Assembly: GCA_013140715.1 (NCBI GenBank)
Contig: JABFSG010000085.1
Location: 1 to 33,854 of the forward strand
DNA from: Nitrospiraceae bacterium
GTDB lineage: Bacteria > Nitrospirota > Nitrospiria > Nitrospirales > Nitrospiraceae
Direction of reading: 5' to 3'
Length of the DNA stretch: 33,854 bases
Shown: positions 1,049 through 15,890 of the stretch, one piece after another
Layout of the letters: each line of letters opens with the position of its first letter
Position numbering within the stretch: position 1 is the first letter of the stretch
Program-made: the position numbers and the translations under genes
The notes under the pieces: generated by a model
Seen by the model: only the letters and a program-made list of their open reading frames with translations
Databases searched by the model: none
Told to the model about the DNA's origin: nothing

Positions 1049-1825
1049 ATGCTGAACGACGAGGACAGGCCCTTCAAGACGACAGAACACCTACAGACTA
1101 TGGTTGCCCATATGATGACACCAGGGGTCGTGCAGGTTCCGGGAGACGTCTCCGTCAGTGAGGCAGCGCTGCTGCTCGAACGAGAACAGGCCCCCTGCCT
1201 GCTCGTCAAGGATACCGACAGCCGATTCGGCTTGATGACGCCGACCGACATCGTCAAGAAAGTCGTCGCTCAGGGGCTCGAACCGCATGATATCGAAGTC
1301 CGGGCGATCATGACGCGCCCGGTGCAGTTCATCGAGTACGATGAGGTCTTGGCAGAAGCCTCGACACTCATGGTGGCAACAGGGGCCTCTCTCCTGATTG
1401 TCACCAAACAAAACCAACCGGTTGGGGTACTCAGTGCGCAAAACTTAATGCTCGCTCCGGCCAGGCGTGACACGAAGATTCCGGTTGTCCTGAGCGTAGT
1501 CGGCCAGGCCTCGGCACAGGGACTGAACTTTAATGCGATGATTACCCAGCTCAACCACGTCGGCGCATTGGTCGAATCGGCAACGAAGCTTGCGCCGAAA
1601 TCCAACGTCGTCCTGGCGTTTTCCATCTCCGGTCAAAACACCCCCTTAACTATTCGAGGAAGGGTTCTAACCGGCGAAATTTCCGGAGCAGAACCGGATA
1701 AGACATCAAGCGGAGCCAGCACCTGGCATATCGATATTCAGTTCACGGACCTCTCATCAAGCGATCTTGCTCGTATCAGGGCCTGGGCGCTTCAAACAAT
1801 GCCTCCCCTGACCAATCACGCTTAA
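1049..1825 (+). CDS. CBS-domain pair with C-terminal PilZ-like domain
   Basis: The protein has 258 residues. The open frame extends upstream to 926, but the ATG at 1049 has a GGAGG about ten bases before it, so I place the start there. Residues roughly 15-130 hold two CBS motifs (VAHMMTPGVVQVP and VRAIMTRPVQFIEYDE are the starts of the two repeats), which usually bind adenosyl ligands such as AMP or ATP. After a short linker with RRDTK, the last ~110 residues have the beta-rich look of a PilZ domain and end in an amphipathic helix (DLARIRAWALQTM). The c-di-GMP signature (RxxxR then D/NxSxxG) is not intact: RRDTK and QLNHVGA are only loose matches. It is probably a cytoplasmic regulatory protein sensing nucleotides. 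The CBS call is firm; the PilZ call is moderate. Confidence 0.75.
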   Translation: MLNDEDRPFKTTEHLQTMVAHMMTPGVVQVPGDVSVSEAALLLEREQAPCLLVKDTDSRFGLMTPTDIVKKVVAQGLEPHDIEVRAIMTRPVQFIEYDEVLAEASTLMVATGASLLIVTKQNQPVGVLSAQNLMLAPARRDTKIPVVLSVVGQASAQGLNFNAMITQLNHVGALVESATKLAPKSNVVLAFSISGQNTPLTIRGRVLTGEISGAEPDKTSSGASTWHIDIQFTDLSSSDLARIRAWALQTMPPLTNHA

Positions 1826-1848
1826 CCACACCCCTATGCTGCGTTTTT

Positions 1849-1877
1849 TTGACCAACAGGCGATCAGCTGATAGAAT
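1849..1877 (+). promoter_or_regulatory. Sigma70-type promoter for the LOG-family gene
   Basis: TTGACC (1849-1854) and TAGAAT (1872-1877) are separated by exactly 17 bases, each 5/6 to consensus. Transcription would start near 1884, about 26 bases before the ATG at 1910. Confidence 0.6.
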
Positions 1878-1909
1878 TTTTTCTGTCTAGGGAATAACCG
1901 TCACCGAAC

Positions 1910-2971
1910 ATGGATAACCGAATGAAAACCTCCCAAACCCATTCCCAGTCCAGGCCCCTCCCCTCGAATGAGGAGCTACTCAACCAAGTTCGCCTCCTGC
2001 TGGACAGTCCGGAAGACGACCTGCAAGCTTCGATTATGAAGGAACTCCTGGCAGGAACGCTTCGGCTCCACGATCCTCATTTGGACATCCTGGACCTCAA
2101 GATCGTCAACCGTGCTGTCAAAGAACTGCGGCATGCCTTCCGCGTCTTTCATGACTATCGCGATAGACGTAAGATCAGCATCTTCGGTTCGGCCCGCACT
2201 GCTCCGGATGACTCAAACTACCGGATGGCCTTCCAGTTTTCCCGTCAGATCGTCGAGGAAGGATTTATGGTCATTACGGGGGGAGCGGACGGGATCATGC
2301 GCGCCTGCCAGGAAGGCGCCGGCCGCGAGAACAGTTTTGGGGTCAATATCATGTTGCCCTTCGAGCAGGGCCCGAATGCCACCATTGCCGATGATCCAAA
2401 ACTCGTCACGTTTAAATACTTCTTTACCCGCAAACTCATCTTTCAGAAAGAAGCCAACGCGATCGCCCTGTTCCCTGGCGGTTTCGGGACCCATGATGAA
2501 GGCTTTGAAATCTTGACCCTCGCCCAGACCGGCAAGAGCGATCCCCAGCCGATCGTCTGTCTTCAGGCTCCCGGTTGCGACTACTGGGACGAGTGGTACG
2601 CCTTCATAAAACGTCAACTCTTGGCCCGTCAATTGATCAACCCTGAAGATCTCAGCCTATTCAAAATCACCACGTCCGTAGATGAGGCGATCGATGAGAT
2701 CAGGAAGTTTTACCGCCGATTCCATTCCATTCGATATGTCGGCCGGCTCCTGGCCATACGGCTGAAAACGAGCATTACCCCCGAGCAGGTAAGCGGCCTG
2801 CATGAAATCTTTGGCGATCTATTATCCGAGGGCACCTTCGAGCTGCGCGGATCGCTCCCGGAAGAACTCGACGAGCCGGACCTGAAGAGCTTGCCCCGGC
2901 TGGCTTTTATCTCCAATCGCAAGAGCGCGAGCCGCTTACGCCAACTGATCGATCACCTCAACCTACTCTGA
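1910..2971 (+). CDS. LOG-family protein (nucleotide 5'-monophosphate nucleosidase-like)
   Basis: The protein has 353 residues, longer than the ~190-residue core of LOG/cytokinin-activating enzymes, with ~85 extra N-terminal and ~100 extra C-terminal residues. The core begins at KISIFGSAR and has a GG-type nucleotide-binding motif (ITGGADGIMRA) and the family signature PGGFGTHDE, which fits PGGxGTxxE. LOG enzymes cleave the ribosyl bond of nucleoside monophosphates, releasing base and ribose 5-phosphate; large bacterial members (PpnN type) act in purine salvage and the stringent response. The arginine and acidic residues of the active site appear present (FFTRKLIF and the final E of the signature). 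The start at 1910 follows a good promoter, but the Shine-Dalgarno is weak (AGGGA about 15 bases upstream); an ATG at 1922 is an alternative. The family is secure, the exact substrate is not. Confidence 0.85.
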   Translation: MDNRMKTSQTHSQSRPLPSNEELLNQVRLLLDSPEDDLQASIMKELLAGTLRLHDPHLDILDLKIVNRAVKELRHAFRVFHDYRDRRKISIFGSARTAPDDSNYRMAFQFSRQIVEEGFMVITGGADGIMRACQEGAGRENSFGVNIMLPFEQGPNATIADDPKLVTFKYFFTRKLIFQKEANAIALFPGGFGTHDEGFEILTLAQTGKSDPQPIVCLQAPGCDYWDEWYAFIKRQLLARQLINPEDLSLFKITTSVDEAIDEIRKFYRRFHSIRYVGRLLAIRLKTSITPEQVSGLHEIFGDLLSEGTFELRGSLPEELDEPDLKSLPRLAFISNRKSASRLRQLIDHLNLL

Positions 2972-2995
2972 CCTCTTCGCACAAAGAGGCTTTAG
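2972..2995 (+). terminator. Weak hairpin after the LOG-family gene
   Basis: CCTCTT (2972-2977) and AAGAGG (2984-2989) form a 6-bp stem with a 6-base loop directly after the stop codon, followed by CTTTAG. The stem and T-run are short, so termination is likely to be partial at best. Confidence 0.35.
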
Positions 2996-3010
2996 TCTCG
3001 GCGGAGCATC

Positions 3011-3910
3011 ATGGTATGCTCTGCCGTAATGAGTGAATCACGCTCACAGCATCCATTTTCTGAGCCCCCCACGGTCGTGCTCTATCACGCCGAATGTGCC
3101 GATGGATTCGGCGCCGCCTGGGCGCTATGGAGTCGATTTCCCACGGCTCGATTCATTCCTGTCAAGCACGGCAATCCCTCTCCCGAAGGACTGCAAGACC
3201 AACGAGTGGTCATCGTGGATTTCAGCTATGCCCGCGAGGCCCTGGAAACCATGGCTCTTCAGACGCAGGCCCTTCTCGTACTCGATCATCACATTACCGC
3301 AGAAAAAGCCCTCGCCGGCCTTCCCTATGCGTATTTCGACATGAAAAAGTCCGGCGCAGTCCTGGCCTGGGAATGGGCGCACGACGAGCCGGTTCCGTGG
3401 CTTCTCGACTATATCCAAGACAAAGACCTCTGGACTTGGGCTCTCCCCCTCAGTCGGGAAATCAATGCGGCTGTCGCCTCATATCCATTCGAGTATCATC
3501 GCTGGAGTCGTTTCACGCAAAAGGAATTGGAGCAGGAAGGCCGGGCTATCTTACGTTATGAAAACGAGCTCGTGAGCAAACTGGCGGCGCAGGCCATGTT
3601 GATCGACTTTCACGGAGCCGTCGTCCCATCGGTCCACAGCGCAATCTTGACGAGCCAGATCGGCGAACGCCTCTCCGCAGAGCACCCGTTCTGCGTCATG
3701 TGGCACGATCGCGATGGACGCCGCTATTACAGCATGCGCTCGAGAGAGGACGGGACGGACGTGGGAGCCATCGCCGCGTCTTTCGGCGGCGGGGGACATA
3801 CACATGCGGCAGGATTTTCGGTCCCTCTCGGACCTGACGGCTCCTTGCCGGACAACCCGACGCTTCCTCGATCGGTCATCGACCGCCGCCGTCCTCCCTC
3901 CCAGGGATGA
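3011..3910 (+). CDS. DHH/DHHA1-family phosphoesterase
   Basis: The protein has 299 residues and belongs to the DHH superfamily of metal-dependent phosphoesterases (RecJ, NrnA and pGpA/oligonucleotide hydrolases). Seen in order: HAECADGFGAAW (motif I), VVIVDFSY (motif II Asp), LVLDHH (the DHH motif), a later Asp in YIQDKDLW, and the C-terminal DHHA1 substrate-binding motif GGGGHTHAAGF. The short, two-domain form without OB-fold or CBS extensions fits a small-substrate phosphohydrolase rather than a RecJ exonuclease. A GGAG lies four bases before the ATG at 3011. An alternative start at 3029 sits eight bases after a TGGTATGCT extended -10 match and could be leaderless. The gene ends four bases before the rhomboid ATG, so the two are probably co-translated. 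The family is clear; the substrate is unknown. Confidence 0.85.
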   Translation: MVCSAVMSESRSQHPFSEPPTVVLYHAECADGFGAAWALWSRFPTARFIPVKHGNPSPEGLQDQRVVIVDFSYAREALETMALQTQALLVLDHHITAEKALAGLPYAYFDMKKSGAVLAWEWAHDEPVPWLLDYIQDKDLWTWALPLSREINAAVASYPFEYHRWSRFTQKELEQEGRAILRYENELVSKLAAQAMLIDFHGAVVPSVHSAILTSQIGERLSAEHPFCVMWHDRDGRRYYSMRSREDGTDVGAIAASFGGGGHTHAAGFSVPLGPDGSLPDNPTLPRSVIDRRRPPSQG

Positions 3911-3914
3911 CATC

Positions 3915-4619
3915 ATGATCCCTCTGCGCGACGATAATCCGACCGAACTGACACCGGTCGTCACGATCGGTTTTATCGTGACCTGCGTCCTCGTCTTTTT
4001 GTACCAGGCGAGCCTACCGGTCGGGCCGGATAATACATTCGTATTCCAGTATGGTGCGATTCCTGCCCTCCTGTTCGGAGAGGCCGACCCTTCCGAAACA
4101 GCCGTCCCCATTCCTGCCTACGCCACCTTGATCACGAGCATGTTCCTCCACGGTGGCTGGATGCACCTGATCGGAAATATGCTCTATCTATGGATCTTCG
4201 GAAACAACATCGAAGACGTCATGGGGCACGCAAAATTCGTCATGTTCTACCTCGCATGCGGGATCCTGGCCGCGTTGAGCCACGCCCTGACCGATCCATC
4301 GTCGGTTGTCCCCATGGTCGGAGCAAGCGGCGCCATTTCCGGTGTATTAGGTGCCTATCTGCTGTTGTTTCCACGAGCTACTGTGCTGGTTCTGATGCCG
4401 GGCTTCGGTGCCACGAGGGTTGCAGCCGGTGTTGTCCTCGGCATGTGGTTCGTCATGCAACTGTTGAGCGGGGGAATGAGCATCGGCAGAACCGGAGGAG
4501 GAGTCGCCTTCTTCGCCCATATCGGCGGGTTTGTGGCTGGGATGGCATTGATCGGTTTGTTCAAACGTGCAGACGTGCCCTACTTCGCCCCACGCCAAAG
4601 AGGCCGGTGGGACGGCTAG
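3915..4619 (+). CDS. Rhomboid-family intramembrane serine protease
   Basis: The protein has 234 residues with about six membrane helices. The catalytic pair is present: Ser138 in GASGAISG and His202 in FFAHIGGFVAGM, together with HGGWMHLIGNMLYLWIFG, which carries the conserved loop and helix-2 Asn88. Rhomboids cut transmembrane substrates within the lipid bilayer. The open frame extends back to 3714, but that part overlaps the DHH gene in another frame. The ATG at 3915 has AGGGA seven bases upstream (3903-3907) and starts four bases after the previous stop, pointing to translational coupling. The C-terminal tail is short and basic. Substrates cannot be read from the sequence. Confidence 0.92.
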   Translation: MIPLRDDNPTELTPVVTIGFIVTCVLVFLYQASLPVGPDNTFVFQYGAIPALLFGEADPSETAVPIPAYATLITSMFLHGGWMHLIGNMLYLWIFGNNIEDVMGHAKFVMFYLACGILAALSHALTDPSSVVPMVGASGAISGVLGAYLLLFPRATVLVLMPGFGATRVAAGVVLGMWFVMQLLSGGMSIGRTGGGVAFFAHIGGFVAGMALIGLFKRADVPYFAPRQRGRWDG

Positions 4620-4647: not shown

Positions 4648-6465
4648 TCATGTATCTAACAGCTCACGCACTTTCCCCACCAGCCCCGCCTGTCGATAGG
4701 GCCGCCTCAGGAGATACCGTGGGTTAAGGCGATGCAACACCATCGTTTCATCGTCATATCCAGAAACAAAGAGCGGCTTCATCGTGGGATGTTGTTTCAA
4801 CAGTCGCCTGGCTAAGTCGCGTCCACCGATTTCCGGCATCATGAGATCGCTCACGGTAACATGAACAGCTCCGGCATATTGCTGTGCGAGCAGCAATGCT
4901 TCAACGGGCGAACCGGCCTCCAAGACCTGATAGCGATGCCGTAACAACGTGGAGAGTGCCAGCTTGCGGTCGATTTCATTCGGTTCCACCAGTAGAACCG
5001 TTTCCTGGCCTTTGGCTGAGCCATTTCCCGGAATTGAAGGAGCAAGCGGATGACCTTGCCGTACAAGGGGAAGTGTCACCCGCACAACGGTGCCTTCGCC
5101 AGGCCGGCTGACAACCTCAACCTGCCCGGCACTCTGCTTCACAATGCCATAGACCGCGGTGAGTCCAAGTCCCACATTCATTTCCTTCGTGGAGAAAAAC
5201 GGTTCGAAGATACGAGACTGGGTCTCTAGGCTCATCCCGCCACCGGTATCGGTCACTTGAATCAGCATGCAGGATAGATGCCCACGGACCCCCTGCTTCG
5301 CTTCAATCCGGAGACGACCTCCATCCGGCATGGCATCCCGCGCGTTCACCGCAAGATGAAGCAGGACCTGTTCGAGCCCTTCACGATCGACCTCGACATC
5401 CATCGGTGCCTCGTCGATGGCCATGCTGAGATCAATGGAAGTGGGCAGAAGTCCTCTTATCACTCCATGCATTTCCTCCAGCACTGTCTTGACCGAAAGC
5501 ACCTGCCGAACTTGGCCATCCTGGAGACCCAACCCGGCCAATTGTGCCGTTAGAGCTGCAGCCTGCTCTCCGCTTCGGAATATATCGTCGACCGGCCCAT
5601 AGAGAGGGTCGTCAGATTTGAGGGAGGAGAGGGCCACACCGGTCTGCTTACCGATCACTGAAACCAGATGGCTCAGTTCCTGGGCTATCCCCCCGGCGAT
5701 CCGACTAATCGCTTCCATTTTCTGCGCCTCATGCAATTGCTGCTCGAGGCCTTGCCGTTCTTTCTTCTCCTGCCGTACATGCTCATTCACCCGTGCGAGA
5801 TCGCCTTTGAGACCCTTGATACGAACCTCTAACTGATCGCGCGATGCCTGCAGCCCCTGTTCAGTCTCTTTCAGGGCCTCAATATTCCCCAACAACACCG
5901 TTTTCTGTTGCCGTTCGGCTCCAATCGTTTGCAGCGCGAGTCCGTAGAATATGGCCATCACTAACAAGACCGGTACTCCCAGCAAATGCCCGGGCGACAT
6001 CGAGCCAGTCTGGACAACCCCCTCATAGAGAATGATGCCGTACCCGGTACAGAGCAAAAGAGATAACCCGATGACATGGGAAAGCCGACGCACTGAAGCC
6101 GCAATGAGCATGAGCACGAAATACGACAGGTAGAGATCGGACCGTGCGTTACCGGAAAGATAGATCGTCGCAGTCACGAGGAGTGTGTCGATCCCTACCA
6201 GAGTACCGCTGAACCACGCGGCCCGCAGAATCGACGTCGGCACATACCATAGGCAGAGGATCATCCCCAATAACCCGCCGATGATCACCACGCTCGTAGA
6301 AAGATTGGCCGTCAGTTCTGCTCCGGACAATAACTGATAGGCCAACATGACACCAACCAGCGACTGAAGCACAATATACCGGGGACGTGAAATTGTACTG
6401 TCGTGACCGGAGTCTGCAGTAGGAGATTCGGCAGAACTCTCAGAAGAGAGGGCAAGACTGCTCAT
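4648..6465 (-). CDS. Membrane hybrid sensor kinase-like protein lacking the phospho-acceptor histidine
   Basis: The protein has 605 residues. An ATG at 6489 lies eight codons upstream, but AGGAGG (6479-6474) sits eight bases before the ATG at 6465, so that start is preferred. Residues ~30-180 form about six membrane helices, ~190-250 a coiled coil, ~250-300 a HisKA-like segment, ~355-465 a HATPase domain and ~488-603 a receiver. The H-box reads RIAGGIAQELSHL: the invariant His of GIAHE/D is Gln262 (codon CAG, 5682-5680). The N box (NARDAMPDGG), G1 (DTGGGM), F box (FEPFFSTK) and G2 (VGLGLTAVYG) are intact. The receiver keeps Asp540 but has EPNE instead of the acidic DDE and Arg588 instead of the conserved Lys. 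It may bind ATP without classical autophosphorylation. It is convergent with the rhomboid gene, 28 bases away. Confidence 0.85.
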   Translation of the reverse strand: MSSLALSSESSAESPTADSGHDSTISRPRYIVLQSLVGVMLAYQLLSGAELTANLSTSVVIIGGLLGMILCLWYVPTSILRAAWFSGTLVGIDTLLVTATIYLSGNARSDLYLSYFVLMLIAASVRRLSHVIGLSLLLCTGYGIILYEGVVQTGSMSPGHLLGVPVLLVMAIFYGLALQTIGAERQQKTVLLGNIEALKETEQGLQASRDQLEVRIKGLKGDLARVNEHVRQEKKERQGLEQQLHEAQKMEAISRIAGGIAQELSHLVSVIGKQTGVALSSLKSDDPLYGPVDDIFRSGEQAAALTAQLAGLGLQDGQVRQVLSVKTVLEEMHGVIRGLLPTSIDLSMAIDEAPMDVEVDREGLEQVLLHLAVNARDAMPDGGRLRIEAKQGVRGHLSCMLIQVTDTGGGMSLETQSRIFEPFFSTKEMNVGLGLTAVYGIVKQSAGQVEVVSRPGEGTVVRVTLPLVRQGHPLAPSIPGNGSAKGQETVLLVEPNEIDRKLALSTLLRHRYQVLEAGSPVEALLLAQQYAGAVHVTVSDLMMPEIGGRDLARRLLKQHPTMKPLFVSGYDDETMVLHRLNPRYLLRRPYRQAGLVGKVRELLDT

Positions 6466-6678
6466 CCGTATGACCTCCTGTTCTGGCACCGAAGACGTTA
6501 GGAGTGGAGCAAGTCCTGTACCGATATCTTAGCGGGCGAAACCCTGTTTTTCCCGTAGGCTAGGCCCTGAGAAGTTGAATCATTCGGTCCATATCCCTAC
6601 AACAGGTCACAAAATAGAACGATGCAGCATCCTATCGGTTGATGTCGGAATAGGGACGAGAGGGATGAAGGCAGAAAG

Positions 6679-7857
6679 TTAGGCGGGCTGGGCGGGACCC
6701 TTTGCCAGGCCGTCACGAAATTGCCTGGCATGATTGAGAGCGAAGCTGAGCGACTCGCCAAGAAACGTCACATGTCCCATCTTGCGACGGGGACGAATCA
6801 CAGACTTGCCGTAGAGATGGAGTACCGCACCGGGAATATCCAACAGGGTGCGACAGCCTGCACCCTTCATAAGAACTGCAGCGTCCTCCCCAATGAGATT
6901 CACCATGACGGCTGGACTCAGCAGGCGCACTTCACCAAGCGGCATGCTGCTGGCCGCGCGAACCTGCTGCTCAAACTGGGATACGGTACAGGCATCAATC
7001 GTGTAATGGCCCGAGTTATGGGGCCTTGGTGCGATTTCGTTAATGAGTAACGATCCGCCCGAGAGCTGAAATAATTCGAGACAAAATACCCCGACTCCTT
7101 CCAACCGATGGACCACTTGACGTCCAAGCATGGCCGCTCGATCGGCCACAGCTGAAGATCCTGGGGCCGGCACCTTGCTGGTCCGAAGAATCCCCTCTTC
7201 ATGTTCATTCTCAGCCAAGGGGTACGTGCAACTCTGTCCGTCAGCTCCACGGACAACCAGGATCGAGAGTTCCCGTTCGAACGGTATCAAGGACTCTACG
7301 ATCCATCGCATGCCAGGGCGAGCGGATTCCGACAATGCCCGTTCCACTTCATGGACATCGGATTCTCGAAGGATTCGCCACTGTCCCTTGCCGTCATAAC
7401 CGGCCGTTGCCGTCTTACAGATGGCAGGGTAGCCGACTTGTGCAACGGCCATCGCCAATTGATCCGGAACGGTCAGGCCGGCGAAGGAGGAAACGGGAAA
7501 TCCATTGGAAGCCAAGAATCCCTTTTGTTCGAGACGATCCTGAATCACCCTCAGTACAGCACTCGACGGACGAACCGGCCTCTGCTGCTCCAAGGCTCGA
7601 CAGAGTTCCGCCGGAACGTTCTCCCACTCATAGGTCACGGCCCTGACCAGATCGGTAAACTGCGCAATCGTGTGTTGATCGTCGAATGGAAAGGGAAAGC
7701 TATACGTGGCAATACGATGGGCCGGCGCCTCCGGATCCGGATCCCAGACAGCAACATGGTACCCGAGACGGCGTGCTGCCAGGGTGAACATGGCGCCCAA
7801 TTGTCCGCCGCCCAGAACGCCCAGGACCGATCCCGGCTCAATGACTGGATCCTTCAC
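6679..7857 (-). CDS. purK: 5-(carboxyamino)imidazole ribonucleotide synthase
   Basis: The protein has 392 residues, the normal length for PurK, an ATP-grasp enzyme that carboxylates aminoimidazole ribonucleotide (AIR) with bicarbonate and ATP in de novo purine synthesis. Motifs seen: the N-terminal nucleotide-fold loop [19 protein letters not shown], the glycine-rich ATP lid YDGKGQWRI, the hinge [12 protein letters not shown], and the catalytic acidic segment [17 protein letters not shown]. The start is a GTG at 7857 that overlaps the purE stop in a GTGA arrangement, so translation is coupled and the two genes form one operon. It is cytosolic, and nothing is unusual except the GTG start. Confidence 0.95.
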
Positions 7858-8432
7858 GACTTGCGACTCAGTCTTCTGGCCCCCTTCACTCCGGCTACCA
7901 GGCCTTTCGCTTCAGAAGACTGGAGCACGCTATCCGTCTGTGTCTGACGGAATAGTTTGACGCTGGCGGCAATCTCCGGATACCGGCCAGCCAGAATTTG
8001 CGCGGCCAGCAAGCCGGCATTCTCCGCCCCTCCGATAGCCACCGTAGCGACGGGAATCCCTTTTGGCATCTGCACGATGGAAAGGAGCGAGTCGAGCCCA
8101 CGAAGATTCTCGGTCGGGATCGGAACACCGATGACGGGCAGGTGGGTCTTCGCAGCCAACATCCCGGGAAGATGAGCCGCCCCGCCGGCGCCGGCAATAA
8201 TGACTTCGATCCCCCGGCTGGGAGCTTGCTCCGCATAGGAGAACAAGCGATCAGGGGTTCGGTGCGCGGAGACGACCAACAATTCGTGCGGGATCCCGAG
8301 ATCTGCCAGAATTGCAACGGCCTTTTCTAAGATTGGGAAATCGGATTTGCTTCCACCCAACACTCCGACTAGAGGATGGGGACGATCCTCTCCCTGCCGT
8401 CGTGATCGTGGTCCTTTGCTGAAACGAGACAT
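7854..8432 (-). CDS. purE: 5-(carboxyamino)imidazole ribonucleotide mutase
   Basis: The protein has 192 residues and belongs to the class I PurE family, which moves the carboxylate of N5-CAIR to C4 of the imidazole ring, the step after PurK. Visible signatures are [12 protein letters not shown] (substrate phosphate loop), VSAHRTPDR with the catalytic His, and [17 protein letters not shown] ~20-residue basic N-terminal extension ([16 protein letters not shown]) precedes the usual start, and ~25 residues extend the C-terminus. AAGGA lies about 11 bases before the ATG, slightly far; an internal start is possible but none has a better site. It overlaps purK by four bases. Pairing with purK shows the organism uses the N5-CAIR route. 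Confidence 0.95.
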
Positions 8433-8805: not shown

Positions 8806-9177
8806 CTATGCCTGCAATTCAGCCTGAACGGCCTCGAGGAGGGCCTTCATTTCAAAGGGTTTCTGAAGCGTGCGATGGGCACCCAACATTTTTGCGACAT
8901 CGAGAAAATTGAGAATACCGATCATTTCACTGCTGCCGGTAATCGCGATGACTTTTACGTTCGGAAATTCCCGCCGCAACGTGGCAATGGTCTCCAATCC
9001 ATCCTGCTCCGGCATGAGAATGTCCATAATAACCACGTCGGCCGGCGCCAGCCGATACTGTTGGATGGCCTCCTTCCCATCACGCGCTTCTGTAACGTGG
9101 TAGCCAGATTGCTCCAATATTTCACGGATCAATTTGCGGAGCTGTTCTTCGTCGTCGACGACAAGAATGGACGACAT
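8806..9177 (-). CDS. Stand-alone CheY-like response regulator receiver
   Basis: The protein has 123 residues and is a single receiver domain without an output module. All key positions are intact: Asp8, Asp9 and Glu10 (VVDDEE), phospho-acceptor Asp52 (VIMDILMP), Thr80 (AITGSS) and Lys106 (LQKPF). Such proteins carry phosphoryl groups between kinases or bind motor, enzyme or anti-sigma partners. No kinase is adjacent in the same operon; the nearest genes are the LuxR regulator and large kinase 226 bases upstream on the same strand, so it could be an extra partner of that kinase or of the His-less hybrid sensor. A GAGG lies four bases before the ATG. The partner is unknown. Confidence 0.9.
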   Translation of the reverse strand: MSSILVVDDEEQLRKLIREILEQSGYHVTEARDGKEAIQQYRLAPADVVIMDILMPEQDGLETIATLRREFPNVKVIAITGSSEMIGILNFLDVAKMLGAHRTLQKPFEMKALLEAVQAELQA

Positions 9178-9403: not shown

Positions 9404-10054
9404 CTAGTGACGTGTGGCAAAGAAGGTGGCAGCTTGCGCGCGTCGTGAGATATGCAGTTTTTGAAATACGTTGGCGAGGTAGTTTTTGACCGTTTTATCG
9501 CTGAGCTGCATCGCAGCCCCAATTTCCTTGTTGGTCAATCCTTCCGCCACCAGCGCCAGCACACGTTCTTCTTGGGGAGAGAGGGATTTCCCCTGCACTG
9601 GTCCTGCTTGAGTCGGCCTGGCTCTGATCCAATCCAGCGCCCGTTGAGTGAGAGTGGGATCGAGAATCGATTGACCCTTGGAGACGGCACAAATCGACCG
9701 AATCAGCCTGGTAGAGTCGATATCCTTGAGCACATATCCCTGCGCGCCTGCCAGCACCGCCGCCAGGGAAGATTCATCGTCGGCATAGGATGTAAGAAAG
9801 ATGACTCGCGTGGTGGGATGGCGAGTGAGAATATCACGACAGGCTTCGACCCCGGAGCCATCCGGGAGTCGAACGTCCATCAAAACGATATCCGGCAGGA
9901 ATCGCTTAGCCGCCCGCAACGCGGCGGCCTTGGTCCCTGCTTCACCGACGACGATAATGCCATGACGATCGTGCAGCACGGTTCGCAGACCGACACGGAC
10001 CACTGCGTGGTCGTCGACCAACAGCAGGCGAATCTGCTTCTTAGACGCAGGCAT
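9404..10054 (-). CDS. NarL/LuxR-family response regulator
   Basis: The protein has 216 residues from the ATG at 10054. A longer frame to 10099 exists, but AGAGG lies about seven bases before 10054 and the family begins here (KKQIRLLLVDDHAVVR). It has an N-terminal receiver with Asp14-Asp15, phospho-acceptor Asp60 (VLMDVRLPDGSG), Thr88 and Lys110, and a LuxR/GerE helix-turn-helix at ~155-216 (LSPQEERVLALVAEGLTNKEIG, then KTVKNYLANVFQKL). Phosphorylation should trigger dimerisation and DNA binding. Its start codon lies inside the 3' end of the giant sensor kinase gene (14-base overlap), so the two are translationally coupled and form a two-component pair. Target genes are not evident. Confidence 0.92.
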   Translation of the reverse strand: MPASKKQIRLLLVDDHAVVRVGLRTVLHDRHGIIVVGEAGTKAAALRAAKRFLPDIVLMDVRLPDGSGVEACRDILTRHPTTRVIFLTSYADDESSLAAVLAGAQGYVLKDIDSTRLIRSICAVSKGQSILDPTLTQRALDWIRARPTQAGPVQGKSLSPQEERVLALVAEGLTNKEIGAAMQLSDKTVKNYLANVFQKLHISRRAQAATFFATRH

Positions 10055-13000
10055 AAGCGGCCTCTTTCGGCAGGTCGATTTCGATGCGCGTCCCCTCATT
10101 CACTTTTGACGTAATGGTGAATCGCCCTCCAATCCTCTTCGCACGGGCAGCCATATTCGTCAACCCATGCCCGGTCCGTCCGTGAGTCTTCAGTTTGAAT
10201 CCACTGCCGTTATCGCGAATGCTTAACCTGATACCCTGCTTCAGTATCTTGAGCGATATCCTAGCCTCTTGCGGGCGACCGTGCCGGATACAATTACTGA
10301 CCGCTTCCTGGATGATAAGGAGCAGTTGCAGGGACTGTTCAGTCGAGAGGGCCTGCACCGCACGGTCCTCGATCGCCAGGCGCACACGGATCGTCTGGTG
10401 CTGTGTCAGCGTATCCAGCATGCGCCGCAGCGCCGTCGGCAAGTCCATCCCTTTGAGCAGGTCTGAGCCTAGCCCCGCAATGAAATTCCGAACCTCGTGC
10501 ATGACACGGTTCAATTGATCGATGGCCTGATCGAGCGGTGCGCCGGACGTCTTACGTGTGCGCGGGGCCATCATCGATTTGGTCGTTTCGAGAGTGAGTC
10601 CCACGGCAAAGAGCGACTGTAGAATACCGTCATGCAGGTCTTGGCTGATCCGCTCCCGTTCATCGATCGCAGCGCGCAGATCGCGCTCTCGATGCCGTAG
10701 CGCATCTTCCATTCGCTTGCGGTCGGTAATATCCTCGCACGTCACCAACACGATGGTTTCTCCCGTAGAAGACTGACCCACACTGGCGGTCTCCCGCACC
10801 CAGATAATCTGTCCGTCCCTCCGCAGTTTCCGAAACTCCCAGTTACTGACTTTCTGCGGTGTTGCAAGACACCCGGACAGACAGGCGGCAACGGCTTGCT
10901 TATCCTCTTCGTGGAAGATCATGAGCACAGAATTCCCGATCAATTCCTCCGCCAAATACCCAAGCTGGTCCGCCCCGAAACGGTTGACGGAACGCACCGT
11001 CCCATCCGTTGCCAGCGTGAAGTACATCGTCGGAGTCTCGTCGTACAAAGTCCGATACCGTTCCTCGCTCTCACGCAGCGCCATTTCCACCCGCTTGCGT
11101 TCACCAATATCCCGCATGATGGCGCAGCTGTATTCTCTCCCCTCGTAGCCCAGATAGTTGACCGTGACTTCCACGTCTAGGACAAGGCCGGTCCTCGACC
11201 AGCATTTTGACTCGAACGTCATGGACCCCTTCCGCTTCAATTCTTTCCAATGGGCCGACCAGCGTTCCTGAGGAAAATTCGGGTCTATGTCGTGTATGGT
11301 CATGATCGCCAATTCGTCACGGGTATATTGCAGCATCCGACAGGCTGCATCATTGACGTCCAAGATCCTGGCATCGGACCTGATCCAGAAAAACCCTTCG
11401 ACCGCATGGTCGACGGAAAACTGAGTCAGTTTAAGGGCTTCCTGAGCCTGTCGCAGCGCTGACACGTCTTCATTCAGCACAATCGCGCCGACAATGACAC
11501 CGGTCTCGTCCCGAACGGGAGCGGTTGTGTTGCGAATGGTTTTCTTCGTTCCATCAAGGCATTCGAGGTTGAGCGTCTCGTCCAGCGAAGGGACACCGGT
11601 CGTGAGCGCATGGCTTAAGGCCCATCGATGCAGCTCACTTGAGGCGCCGATCGCCTCCCACCATCCGGAATCATCAGCGACAGTCTCGATCCCGACTCGT
11701 TTGATACCGGACCAAATCTGCTTGGCTGCGGGATTGGAAAGGACCGGTTTGCCTGATGGATCGGTAAACCAGACACCCACCGGCAACGCGTCCAGCACCG
11801 TGCGGAGCTGACGCTCGCTCCGGCGTAGTGCTTCTTCCGCCTGTTTGCGCTCAGTAATGTCTTGGCATGAGCCGGACATGCGACAGGGCTTTCCCTGCTC
11901 GTCCCATATCGCCTGCCCGCGCCCGCGGATCCAAAGATATTCGCCTTGATTGGTGCGCATCCGGTATTCAACATCGTACGGAGTTCGGTGTTCGATATGC
12001 GCAGTCAATTGGCCAAACACGCGATCCTTGTCATCAGGATGCAGCCTTATCACCCATTGTTCGAACGTCTCGAATGGCTCTGTCTCCTCCAAACCAAGAA
12101 ATTCACGGACTCGCGGCGACCACCAGATCGGTGTCTGTGGCGCATACCACGGTTCACCTGGAAGCCGGTGAGCATCCCACAGGATATCGCTGGATCCCTC
12201 TACAGCCAGCGCAAAGCGTTCTTCACTCACGCGCAGGGCCTCCAGATATGACTGACGATCAAGTTCACTGCCCAACCAACGAGCCATAAGTTGCAGGAAA
12301 TCCGTCTCCGCATCGCTGAATCGCTCTGAGCGAGGTTCCCCTCCCACGAAACAGATCATCCCATAGAGTTGATCAGGCCCCGTGAGTTTCACGCCGAGAT
12401 AACACTCGAATCCAAACTGAGCGTAGGCGGGATGATCGCGCCATTCCGACGCGACTGCATGTGCAAATTGAACCGGTTCCTCGGCATGGAGGGTGACTGA
12501 ACAGTAGGAGGTTTGGAGCGGAAGGAGCGTTCCCTTGTCAAGAGTGGTGCCGGGGGCCCACACATGGAGAAGTTCAAGCTGCCCGCCACGAAGTCGAGTC
12601 ACAAGTCCGATCGGAAGGTTGAACCGCCGACAACCTAATTGAAGAAGCCGTTCGATGCGTTCTTCGAACGTACATTCAGGCATGGAGGCAAGTTCATGTA
12701 GCGCTCGGATCGACTGTTCGCTGATCCGACGAGCCTCCTCTGCCCGCTTGTATTCGGTAATGTCCCGGGAAATACCAAAGAGGCCAGACACCATGCCCTG
12801 CTCATCGAACAGGGGGCCCTTGGTGGCAGAAAATGTTCTGCGGACGCCGTCTGCCGTGGTCAAATGCTCCTCGTAGGTGATGGCCTTGCCACCTACCATC
12901 ACCTCGCGGTCTCTCTCCATTACCACCTTTGCGTCGTCAGGCGGGAAGATAAAGGTGTCGTCGTGGCCGAGGACCTCGCCCGGGCTCTTGCCAACAAAGC

Positions 13001-15617
13001 GGCCAGCCGCATCATTGAAGAGGAGATATTGTCCCTGCAAGTCCTTGATAAACACGGCATCCGACGTTCCCTCCACAATGGCGTGCAACCGTTGACGGCT
13101 TTCGTGTAACGCTTCCTGCGTCCGCTTGCGAGCGGTGATATCGCGGAAACTCCAGACCCGGCCGACAATTTCCTCCTCCAGAATTTGTGGGGCCGAATAG
13201 CGCTCGAACGCCCGTCCATCCTTAAATGACAGCATGTCGAAACTTTCCTGTTCTGGATGCGCATACAACTCCCGCACCTTGGTCAGGAAGATCTCAGGCT
13301 CCTGAAGCTGTTCCAGCACAAAAGACAGCAGGACTTCGTCGATGCGGCATTCCGCAAGGTCTTGCGGAATCTGCCACAAATCCAAGAACCGCTGGTTTAC
13401 GCTGGTCACTTTTCCTTGACGATTGATGACCAGTAGACCATCTGCAGTAGAGTTGATGGTGGCCTGCAGCAGTGAATATGCCTGCTTGCGTTCGGTAATC
13501 ACCTCCGTGTACATCATGATGCCGCCGATTTCCCCGGTAATGTCGTGCCAGGGGCGTATTTCCCAGCGAAGCCAATCCTCTGATCCATCGGTACGAGTAA
13601 AATGATCCTCTTCGCACCGTTCTACAGCCCCTGCCAGACAACGTTGGTGGATCTCTTGCCACTCCTTCATATCTTTGATCTCAGGGAACACATCATAGTG
13701 ATGTCTACCGATCAATTGCTGGCATCCTAGTCGGTAGTCTTCCATCCAGCGCCGGCTGACCGCCACGTATCTGAGGTCTTTGTCCAACATTGCAACACCG
13801 GCAGGCGTGTGCTCGACGAAGGATTTCATGAGATCCCGGCTTCTAACCAGCGCCTCCTCCGCCCCCTTACGCGCAGTAATGTCCGTTTCCGATCCGGCCA
13901 TGCGGGTCGGCGTGCCATCTTCGGCCCAGAGGGCCACGCCCCGATCCAAGATCCACATATAGGACCCGTCTTTCCGCTGAACCCGGTATTCTTCGCAAAA
14001 CTCCGGAACTTGTTTGGCCATATAGGCGTCGAGACTCTGAAGCACTCGGTCGAGATCGTCGGGATGGATGCGGCTTTGCCATTCAGCGACATGGTTCGTG
14101 ATTTCATGGTCCTCAAACCCGCGCATCGCTTTCCATCGCGGAGAAAAAAAGACCTCGCCTGATTGGATGTTCCAATCCCAGATACCATCGTTACTGCCGC
14201 GCACGGCAAGCTGCCACCGTTCTTCGCTGACACGGAGTGCCTCTTCGACCCGTTTACGTTCCGTGATATCCTGAACAATCGCGATATGATGAACAGGCGT
14301 TTCGCCCAGTCGCCACAATGGCGACACGTTGAGGCTCACCCACACAATGGAGCCATCTTTGCGCACATAACGCTTTTCCATCATGAAAGAGGGTATCTCA
14401 CCGGAGAGGAGGCGTATCCGTCTCTCAAGATTCTCCTCCAAGTCATCAGGGTGGGTGATGGCTTGAACTGTGGTTGACAGCATCTCAGACTCCGTCAGGC
14501 CTACGACCTCACAGTAGCTGCGATTGACCTGCACAAACCGGCCCGTGTTCGAATCGACTTGAGCCACTCCTGCTCCCGCTTGTTCAAAAATAGCCCGGTA
14601 GTGCAGCTCGGCCTTGGACAAAGCTTCTTTCGCCCGCTTCTTCTCAGATACATCTCTCCCCACTCCAATAATACCAATGGACTCGCCGTGAGCATTCTTG
14701 AGGAGGGCGCCGGTCCAATGATAGGGAATGCGCCGGTGCTCTTTCGTCAACAGATGCCCCTCAAGTTCGGCATACCCTTCCGTGAAAGCCCGCTGAATCG
14801 CAGATGCAGTGTCGGCCCACTCTTCCAGAGGCACGAAGGCCAAGGCAGGCTTGTTCCACAGTTCTTCGGGACTGTATCCCGTGACTTCCTCGACACGACG
14901 ATTCCACTTCACCATGTTGCCTTGGGTGTCGAGGGTGAACAGAATGTCAGGAATCGTCTCCATGATGTTCTGGACGTCGTATAGAGACTGGGCACGTTCC
15001 TGCTCGACTCGCCTCCTCTCGAACTCTACGCCAACGCGCGGGGCGAAAACTCCAAGCAGGGACTTCAAATAGTCGCCCTGTTGCAACGGCTTTGTATCCA
15101 TCACGATAAGCAATCCCATGACGACTCCGCCCTTTGTTCGAAGCGGCACCGCGCAATAACTTTCGGCTCTAAAGTCTGCTAAACGATGGAACTGAGGGAA
15201 CATGGCCTGGACATCTCTGTCGAAATAGGCGAAGGATTGGGTCAGGGCAGTGGCACAGGGTGTATGAGCCAATTCATATTCAAAGTTGTCGACGAGAGTG
15301 CCTCCAGCCGAAACCGCGAGAGTACGGATCTTCTTAGGTTCACCTTCACAGACTTGACCGATCACCGCATATTGCACATGCAACGTCGAGGTCAAGTGCG
15401 TGACAAGAGCAGCAAAGAACTCATCCCCGGTCTCGGCCGCTGTGCCTTCGACGATCGTGTGCAGGAGCTGCGATTGCTCGCGGAGATCTTGCACCGTCTC
15501 TTCACAATGACGGCGTTGTACCCTCATCGCTTGGTCCCGCTCGGCAAGTTCGCGCGTAAGGTCTGCGACCTGCAATCGCAGAGATTCGAGTTCCAATGGA
15601 TGATCGGTGCTACTCAT
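10041..15617 (-). CDS. Giant multi-PAS/GAF sensor histidine kinase (NarX/DegS-type catalytic core)
   Basis: The protein has 1858 residues from the ATG at 15617, which has AGGAG seven bases upstream; an ATG at 15641 lacks a site. Order by eye: coiled coil ~10-55; GAF ~55-205; six PAS/PAC units ~215-965, each closing with a DITERK-like motif; second GAF ~975-1130; four more PAS/PAC units ~1135-1655; then a HisKA_3 dimerisation domain with the phospho-acceptor His near 1664 (ERISQDLHDGILQ) and a HATPase with N box QEAVSNCIRHG, G1 DNGSGF and G2 GHGLTNMAARA. No membrane segments are seen, so it is cytoplasmic and may sense several internal signals or redox state. Most PAS units are cofactor-ambiguous by eye. 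Its partner is the overlapping LuxR-type regulator. The length is far above the usual 400-1000 residues, and the frame is unbroken. Confidence 0.93.
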   Translation of the reverse strand: MSSTDHPLELESLRLQVADLTRELAERDQAMRVQRRHCEETVQDLREQSQLLHTIVEGTAAETGDEFFAALVTHLTSTLHVQYAVIGQVCEGEPKKIRTLAVSAGGTLVDNFEYELAHTPCATALTQSFAYFDRDVQAMFPQFHRLADFRAESYCAVPLRTKGGVVMGLLIVMDTKPLQQGDYLKSLLGVFAPRVGVEFERRRVEQERAQSLYDVQNIMETIPDILFTLDTQGNMVKWNRRVEEVTGYSPEELWNKPALAFVPLEEWADTASAIQRAFTEGYAELEGHLLTKEHRRIPYHWTGALLKNAHGESIGIIGVGRDVSEKKRAKEALSKAELHYRAIFEQAGAGVAQVDSNTGRFVQVNRSYCEVVGLTESEMLSTTVQAITHPDDLEENLERRIRLLSGEIPSFMMEKRYVRKDGSIVWVSLNVSPLWRLGETPVHHIAIVQDITERKRVEEALRVSEERWQLAVRGSNDGIWDWNIQSGEVFFSPRWKAMRGFEDHEITNHVAEWQSRIHPDDLDRVLQSLDAYMAKQVPEFCEEYRVQRKDGSYMWILDRGVALWAEDGTPTRMAGSETDITARKGAEEALVRSRDLMKSFVEHTPAGVAMLDKDLRYVAVSRRWMEDYRLGCQQLIGRHHYDVFPEIKDMKEWQEIHQRCLAGAVERCEEDHFTRTDGSEDWLRWEIRPWHDITGEIGGIMMYTEVITERKQAYSLLQATINSTADGLLVINRQGKVTSVNQRFLDLWQIPQDLAECRIDEVLLSFVLEQLQEPEIFLTKVRELYAHPEQESFDMLSFKDGRAFERYSAPQILEEEIVGRVWSFRDITARKRTQEALHESRQRLHAIVEGTSDAVFIKDLQGQYLLFNDAAGRFVGKSPGEVLGHDDTFIFPPDDAKVVMERDREVMVGGKAITYEEHLTTADGVRRTFSATKGPLFDEQGMVSGLFGISRDITEYKRAEEARRISEQSIRALHELASMPECTFEERIERLLQLGCRRFNLPIGLVTRLRGGQLELLHVWAPGTTLDKGTLLPLQTSYCSVTLHAEEPVQFAHAVASEWRDHPAYAQFGFECYLGVKLTGPDQLYGMICFVGGEPRSERFSDAETDFLQLMARWLGSELDRQSYLEALRVSEERFALAVEGSSDILWDAHRLPGEPWYAPQTPIWWSPRVREFLGLEETEPFETFEQWVIRLHPDDKDRVFGQLTAHIEHRTPYDVEYRMRTNQGEYLWIRGRGQAIWDEQGKPCRMSGSCQDITERKQAEEALRRSERQLRTVLDALPVGVWFTDPSGKPVLSNPAAKQIWSGIKRVGIETVADDSGWWEAIGASSELHRWALSHALTTGVPSLDETLNLECLDGTKKTIRNTTAPVRDETGVIVGAIVLNEDVSALRQAQEALKLTQFSVDHAVEGFFWIRSDARILDVNDAACRMLQYTRDELAIMTIHDIDPNFPQERWSAHWKELKRKGSMTFESKCWSRTGLVLDVEVTVNYLGYEGREYSCAIMRDIGERKRVEMALRESEERYRTLYDETPTMYFTLATDGTVRSVNRFGADQLGYLAEELIGNSVLMIFHEEDKQAVAACLSGCLATPQKVSNWEFRKLRRDGQIIWVRETASVGQSSTGETIVLVTCEDITDRKRMEDALRHRERDLRAAIDERERISQDLHDGILQSLFAVGLTLETTKSMMAPRTRKTSGAPLDQAIDQLNRVMHEVRNFIAGLGSDLLKGMDLPTALRRMLDTLTQHQTIRVRLAIEDRAVQALSTEQSLQLLLIIQEAVSNCIRHGRPQEARISLKILKQGIRLSIRDNGSGFKLKTHGRTGHGLTNMAARAKRIGGRFTITSKVNEGTRIEIDLPKEAAYACV

Positions 15618-15806
15618 GGGGTAACTCCTTGCCAGGTGCAATAACCACGTGGGATGACTGAGTATGGGTGTTGACGGAGAGAGTGGGGATAGGTCCTCAG
15701 ATGATGCATTGAGGATTCACAAAGCTATTGAGCCGCGAGGGAACAGTCACGTGCCATGCCGTTCCGAAAGCCTGATTAACGGGGGATGGGAATGGACTGC
15801 TGAATT

Positions 15807-15890
15807 TGGTGCCGAAGGCGGGACTTGAACCCGCACGGCTTGCGCCACACGCCCCTCAAACGTGCGTGTCTGCCATTTCACCACTTCGGC
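15807..15890 (-). tRNA. tRNA-Leu(GAG)
   Basis: The minus strand folds into a class II tRNA. The acceptor stem starts GCCGAAG and ends CTTCGGC followed by A and an encoded CCA. The D arm contains AAATGGCAGAC. The anticodon stem CACGT/GCGTG encloses loop TTGAGGG, giving anticodon GAG (reads CUC and CUU). A variable arm GGC-GCAA-GCC and a T arm with GGTTCAAGTCC complete it. The length of 84 with CCA fits bacterial tRNA-Leu. It stands alone, with the repeat at 15899-15967 close to its 5' side. Confidence 0.96.

Follow-up and report, generated by a model that had tools for sequence, protein, structure and literature searches.

Introduction

What is left for a hybrid histidine kinase to do when neither the phospho-acceptor His of its kinase part nor the chemistry of its attached receiver is kept? 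The question is raised by a gene on the reverse strand, at positions 4648..6465, of the window (i.e., the whole 33,854-nucleotide stretch of Nitrospiraceae DNA analysed here), encoding a protein of 605 aa which we call a pseudo-hybrid histidine kinase (PHK). Judging from the comparison of its orthologues, we consider it probable that PHK is a pseudo-hybrid histidine kinase throughout its family, in which the histidine-kinase and receiver folds would be kept with no phosphate relay, and whose output would be regulated protein-protein contact.

Results

The ORF starts at the ATG at 6465, where the block aligning in orthologues also begins; an alternative start, the GTG at 6489, would give 613 aa. 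From its N-terminus, the protein consists of a 6TM input module (residues 28-190, 5896..6384, with about six transmembrane helices within 28-175), a coiled coil, a HisKA-like DHp hairpin (residues 241-310, 5536..5745), a HATPase_c or ATP-binding (CA) domain (residues 360-468, 5062..5388; E = 6e-20) and a pseudo-receiver (residues 487-605, 4651..5007), all encoded on the minus strand. A long helix leads into the coiled coil and the DHp hairpin (helices 158-281 and 289-311). Even at E<=10, Pfam assigns the 6TM module to no family and gives no HisKA call for the DHp of the window protein; nor does it give a PAS match, the input being the 6TM module. An AlphaFold model (mean pLDDT 69, pTM 0.45, below 50 in the lid) served for the domain layout only.

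A profile search of 175 Nitrospiraceae genomes yielded 104 usable PHK orthologues in 8 genera, the genus of the window (assembly G000) being sampled by 32 species; orthology was based on position and sequence. The order purE > purK > PHK < rhomboid < DHH < SLOG < CBS is near-constant across 81 loci, the sole g21 locus being without the purE-purK-PHK-rhomboid-DHH order. In the window, the upstream synteny markers are purK (6679..7857, minus strand) and purE (7854..8432, minus strand), and the conserved neighbours on the other side are a rhomboid-family protein (3918..4619, plus strand), convergent with PHK, and a DHH-family phosphoesterase (3035..3910, plus strand). We rejected a functional link between PHK and the purine genes. 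Sixteen regions were inspected in genomes with no full-length PHK match, and in most of them purK abuts the rhomboid gene and PHK is cleanly missing; since this neighbourhood stays without PHK, the synteny is regional, is not evidence of common function and does not name a partner. In one genome (locus L265 of G193, 1246-4013) the slot between purK and rhomboid is filled not by PHK but by genes that look, by eye, trypsin-like and alpha/beta-hydrolase-like, and in another (L155 of G133) the rhomboid and DHH genes are doubled and flank PHK, by segmental duplication or as an assembly artefact. Elsewhere in the window, a LuxR-type response regulator and then a 1866-aa PAS/GAF kinase with HisKA_3 occupy 9404-15641 (minus strand), and a tRNA-Leu (gag) at 15807-15890 (minus strand) is the sole RNA gene found.

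Among the best non-orthologous homologues of PHK in other bacteria (L044-L119), the phospho-acceptor His is present in every match listed, and a GTGLGL-type lid together with an intact receiver in nearly all of them. In a paralogous family, that of intact hybrid kinases from 21 genomes of the window's genus, all catalytic residues are invariant (21/21), and the paralogues in the genome of the window (L031-L039) all carry an HD or HE box. Four proteins (L266, L279, L280 and L283) have the same 6TM-DHp-CA-receiver layout as PHK with His, Asp and Lys intact, and one genome (G068) encodes both an intact 6TM hybrid kinase and a PHK. In a quick tree rooted with 27 active kinases, all with His, Asp and Lys, the PHKs form one clade. 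On these comparisons, the most plausible origin of PHK is the duplication of a 6TM hybrid kinase, followed by an early loss of phosphotransfer. The 6TM module itself is present in 135 of 235 genomes of the order and is paired, at other loci, with other outputs (GGDEF, GGDEF-EAL, PAS-kinases and tandem-receiver kinases), with few and weak matches in the wider phylum; being reused across Nitrospirales with no Pfam match, it is a candidate new sensory domain.

The original prediction had the ATP-binding boxes intact, which is right for the N (VNARDAM), G1 (DTGGGM) and F (FEPFFSTK) boxes but not for the lid and G2 box, which are shortened and altered. Each of the invariant residues N374, D406, G408, G410 and G432 is found in 104/104 orthologues, and the site rates of the ATP-pocket positions fall mostly within the 0-20th percentile. 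The lid and G2 of the window protein read KE-MNVGLGL, two residues fewer than the KExGKGTGLGL of active relatives, the first Gly and the Thr of GTGLGL being absent. Compared with an active HisKA-type hybrid kinase, PHK has the N, G1 and F boxes but neither the GTGLGL G2 nor the full lid and, given these changes, nucleotide binding is predicted from the conservation of the pocket only. As for a possible c-di-GMP site, Tyr/Phe439 and Lys/Arg443 are kept and 448 is not Trp, so that PHK presumably has no equivalent of the Trp of the CckA site; no CckA-like site is claimed, the retained residues being generic to this HisKA class.

Invariant pocket residues beside a freely drifting acceptor could be accounted for if PHK were the asymmetric subunit of a heterodimer with an active HisKA-class kinase, its ATP site phosphorylating the partner's His in trans; its DHp and CA domains are, in addition, clearly related to those of active paralogues in the same genome. 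With the catalytic lid two residues short, the GT of GTGLGL missing in the main clade and a partner that is hypothetical, we nevertheless find this unlikely.

At the phospho-acceptor position, the predicted Gln was confirmed in the ORF: codon 262 is CAG (5682-5680, minus strand; listed as 5680..5682 in forward order), inside KMEAISRIAGGIAQELSHL. The idea of Gln262 as a residue selected for its own sake was not borne out, because the column drifts over 14 residues among the 104 orthologues (N26, G23, H17, K9, E7, D5, S5, Q3, V3, T2 and one each of A, R, Y and L) and its rate, at the 95th percentile, places it in the fastest-evolving 5% of PHK sites. The acceptor His is absent in 87/104 orthologues, as opposed to a background of 0.9% of HisKA domains (PMC12632262), a change beyond chance. 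Could PHK still be an enzyme, i.e., a kinase or phosphatase acting via His266 or Glu263, or a transmitter-phosphatase towards a separate regulator? E263, directly after the acceptor position, is retained in 100/104 orthologues, and His266 is found in 32/104, but the latter column elsewhere holds Q (24), A (17), E (13), S, K and others. Not being conserved, His266 was rejected as a substitute phospho-acceptor, and no other conserved residue stands in for His262. The Thr/Asn of transmitter-phosphatases at the His+4 position occurs in 6/104 orthologues only which, on top of the loss of His262, means that neither kinase nor phosphatase activity is expected. A remaining enzymatic role thus seems quite improbable.

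At the opposite end of the chain, the changes predicted for the window receiver are both there, namely EPNE at 494-497 (EP for ED in the acidic pair) and Arg588 in place of Lys (LLRRPY, versus QKPF in active relatives). Asp540, said to be kept, is indeed present in the window protein, as is Ser568, but it does not characterize the family: column 540 has Asp in only 25/104 orthologues (P38, H26, D25, G5, N3, E2 and others), most of the rest being Pro, His or Gly, and evolves at the 72nd percentile of site rates. Column 588 is just as mixed (Q44, R35, H16, K4, S2), whilst Ser568 is kept in 100/104. Co-occurrence of Gln262, EPNE and Arg588 was found in part. An acidic pair interrupted at 495, by Pro, Ala or Val, goes with Arg588 in the genus of the window and its sister genus g2 only; in the other genera the pair is EE and residue 588 is Gln, His or Lys, Arg and Ser being rare there, and Gln262 is not conserved. 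PHK therefore fails as an active receiver, for which acidic pair, phospho-Asp, Thr/Ser and Lys are needed. With its Response_reg match (2e-8) and missing active-site residues, it agrees with the definition of a pseudo-receiver, i.e., a receiver fold without at least one of five active-site residues (PMC12632262); receivers without the Asp have a background frequency of 2.0% in the same source. Not one of the orthologues (0/104) joins His262, Asp540 and Lys588.

In spite of all this, the pseudo-receiver is the slowest-evolving domain of PHK (mean site rate 0.63) and retains family-specific surface residues (H578, R579 and PYRQ at 589-592). The overall dN/dS of close PHK pairs is 0.05-0.22 and, with few exceptions, it is low in every domain; some 134 positions show 97% or higher invariance within the family. 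On the quick tree, the minimum number of changes is 27 for column 262, 13 for column 540, 9 for column 588 and 7 for the His/non-His distinction. A decaying, functionless gene whose catalytic residues went by neutral drift would fit the clean absence of PHK from most of the 16 regions inspected, the copy of G164 (L261), fragmented by an interruption of ~0.9 kb, and that of G134, with its in-frame TGA. Individual losses do occur, but the dN/dS values and site rates, a receiver that is the most conserved domain, the many near-invariant positions and the maintenance of PHK in 8 genera make decay highly improbable, and PHK as a pseudogene was rejected.

That codon 262 is a local point mutation or read error in an ordinary hybrid kinase can be practically dismissed: the nearest orthologue (L002, 94% identical) does have His (CAC), but the remaining same-genus orthologues carry N, E, D or S, mostly Asn, and the receiver changes and lid deletion are common to the whole genus. 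Orthologues with His had been named beforehand as a sign of such an error, and they exist, in L002 and in 16/27 members of the sister genus g26, whose receivers carry His or Gln for Asp540. The alternation of His and non-His is family-wide, however, and so speaks for an unconstrained position. The His of L002 is probably a reversal by drift, even if the change counts give no direction. As L002 and these g26 members keep His262, residual autophosphorylation is possible in them.

Discussion

At the level of sequence, the loss of the phospho-His and of receiver chemistry in almost every orthologue, the invariance of the ATP-pocket residues, strong purifying selection and a common descent with active 6TM hybrid kinases of like architecture are clear. 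Since both phosphotransfer ends have gone throughout the family and the gene is subject to purifying selection, the best reading is a non-phosphotransfer role, i.e., ATP binding and/or scaffolding. In this respect the original prediction, which saw both ends altered together and suggested ATP binding, allosteric control or a scaffold role, would be upheld for the family as a whole, though not for Gln262 itself. Selection has preserved the sensor, the transmitting helices, the nucleotide pocket and the surface of the receiver, a pattern consistent with an allosteric receptor that would bind nucleotide and act on partner proteins. In such a receptor, a signal at the 6TM module would move the long helix running from TM6 through the coiled coil to the DHp, ATP or ADP held in the CA domain would set the arrangement of CA, DHp and pseudo-receiver, and the output would be a regulated contact with another protein, e.g., an active kinase from its own HisKA class, or a response regulator, as between DivL and DivK/CckA or between NifL and NifA. 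A stand-alone CheY-like receiver just upstream of purE (8806-9177, minus strand), with DD/D/T/K intact, is a possible DivK-like partner; it lies near PHK in only part of the genus of the window.

It is tempting to go further and to speculate that a whole hybrid two-component chain was turned into a non-phosphorylating allosteric device, forming a core receptor class of Nitrospiraceae, in which the Bergerat pocket would serve as an adenine-nucleotide sensor or clamp, and the state of 6TM module and nucleotide would be read via the docking surface of the pseudo-receiver. The phospho-His site would then drift freely because no chemistry remains. We offer this bolder version tentatively, as it may well turn out otherwise.

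Whatever its exact mode of action, PHK makes testable what ATP-binding histidine kinases do without phosphotransfer. Its 104 orthologues amount to a natural experiment, where the ATP pocket, DHp, receiver surface and 6TM input stay under selection whilst the phospho-His and the receiver Asp and Lys do not, in a bacterial family, the Nitrospiraceae, that includes nitrite-oxidising and comammox Nitrospira. It also calls for caution in annotation, where ‘hybrid histidine kinases’ of this type should be left out of counts of phosphorelay proteins.

Among known systems, CckA (PDB 5idj, 5idm) is the nearest solved DHp-CA to PHK by both sequence and fold, and belongs to the same HisKA class; CckA is active and bifunctional, however, whereas PHK is without the His and has a shorter ATP lid. 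NifL controls its partner by protein contact without phosphotransfer. Its GHKL domain binds adenine nucleotide (ADP) and it acts on NifA (PMC8219145); PHK can be likened to it via the invariant pocket residues only, nucleotide binding by PHK being predicted, and differs in having a 6TM input and a pseudo-receiver with no nifA-like neighbour, NifL being soluble, with an FAD-PAS sensor and no receiver. RetS of P. aeruginosa, a hybrid kinase that has no kinase activity itself but controls a second kinase (PMC5992135), is a mirror image, with a degenerate HATPase, an intact H-box and an active receiver Asp (PMC5992135); in PHK it is the HATPase pocket that remains, whilst the His of the H-box and the chemistry of the receiver are gone. 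A RetS-type regulator, with degenerate HATPase and intact HExxT box, was considered and set aside on this reversed pattern. In ShkA and CikA, a receiver-like domain without key residues acts as a docking module on a histidine kinase that is active and gated by it (PMC12632262), whilst in PHK the acceptor of the kinase is lost as well.

Another close parallel is the Caulobacter pseudo-histidine kinase DivL, which acts on DivK/CckA, has no kinase or phosphatase activity and works by binding partners (PMC4211667). Its crystal structure (4q20) is among the Foldseek matches of PHK and, as in PHK, a histidine-kinase fold has its phospho-His replaced, a loss common to the orthologues (PMC4211667). 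DivL, for its part, has PAS domains as input, an almost invariable Tyr and weak TNP-ATP binding (57 uM), a receiver not being described (PMC4211667); in PHK the input is 6TM, residue 262 drifts, the ATP-pocket residues are invariant and a pseudo-receiver is present. With a 6TM input, no PAS match and no fixed Tyr at the His site, PHK was rejected as an orthologue of this alphaproteobacterial protein. By sequence, nevertheless, PHK would join DivL among the pseudo-histidine kinases, a known class, having the histidine-kinase fold without its catalytic residue and being conserved as such in its orthologues. Those described so far are mostly single proteins, whereas PHK appears as a lineage-wide family, a variant with both ends degenerate and the ATP pocket conserved.
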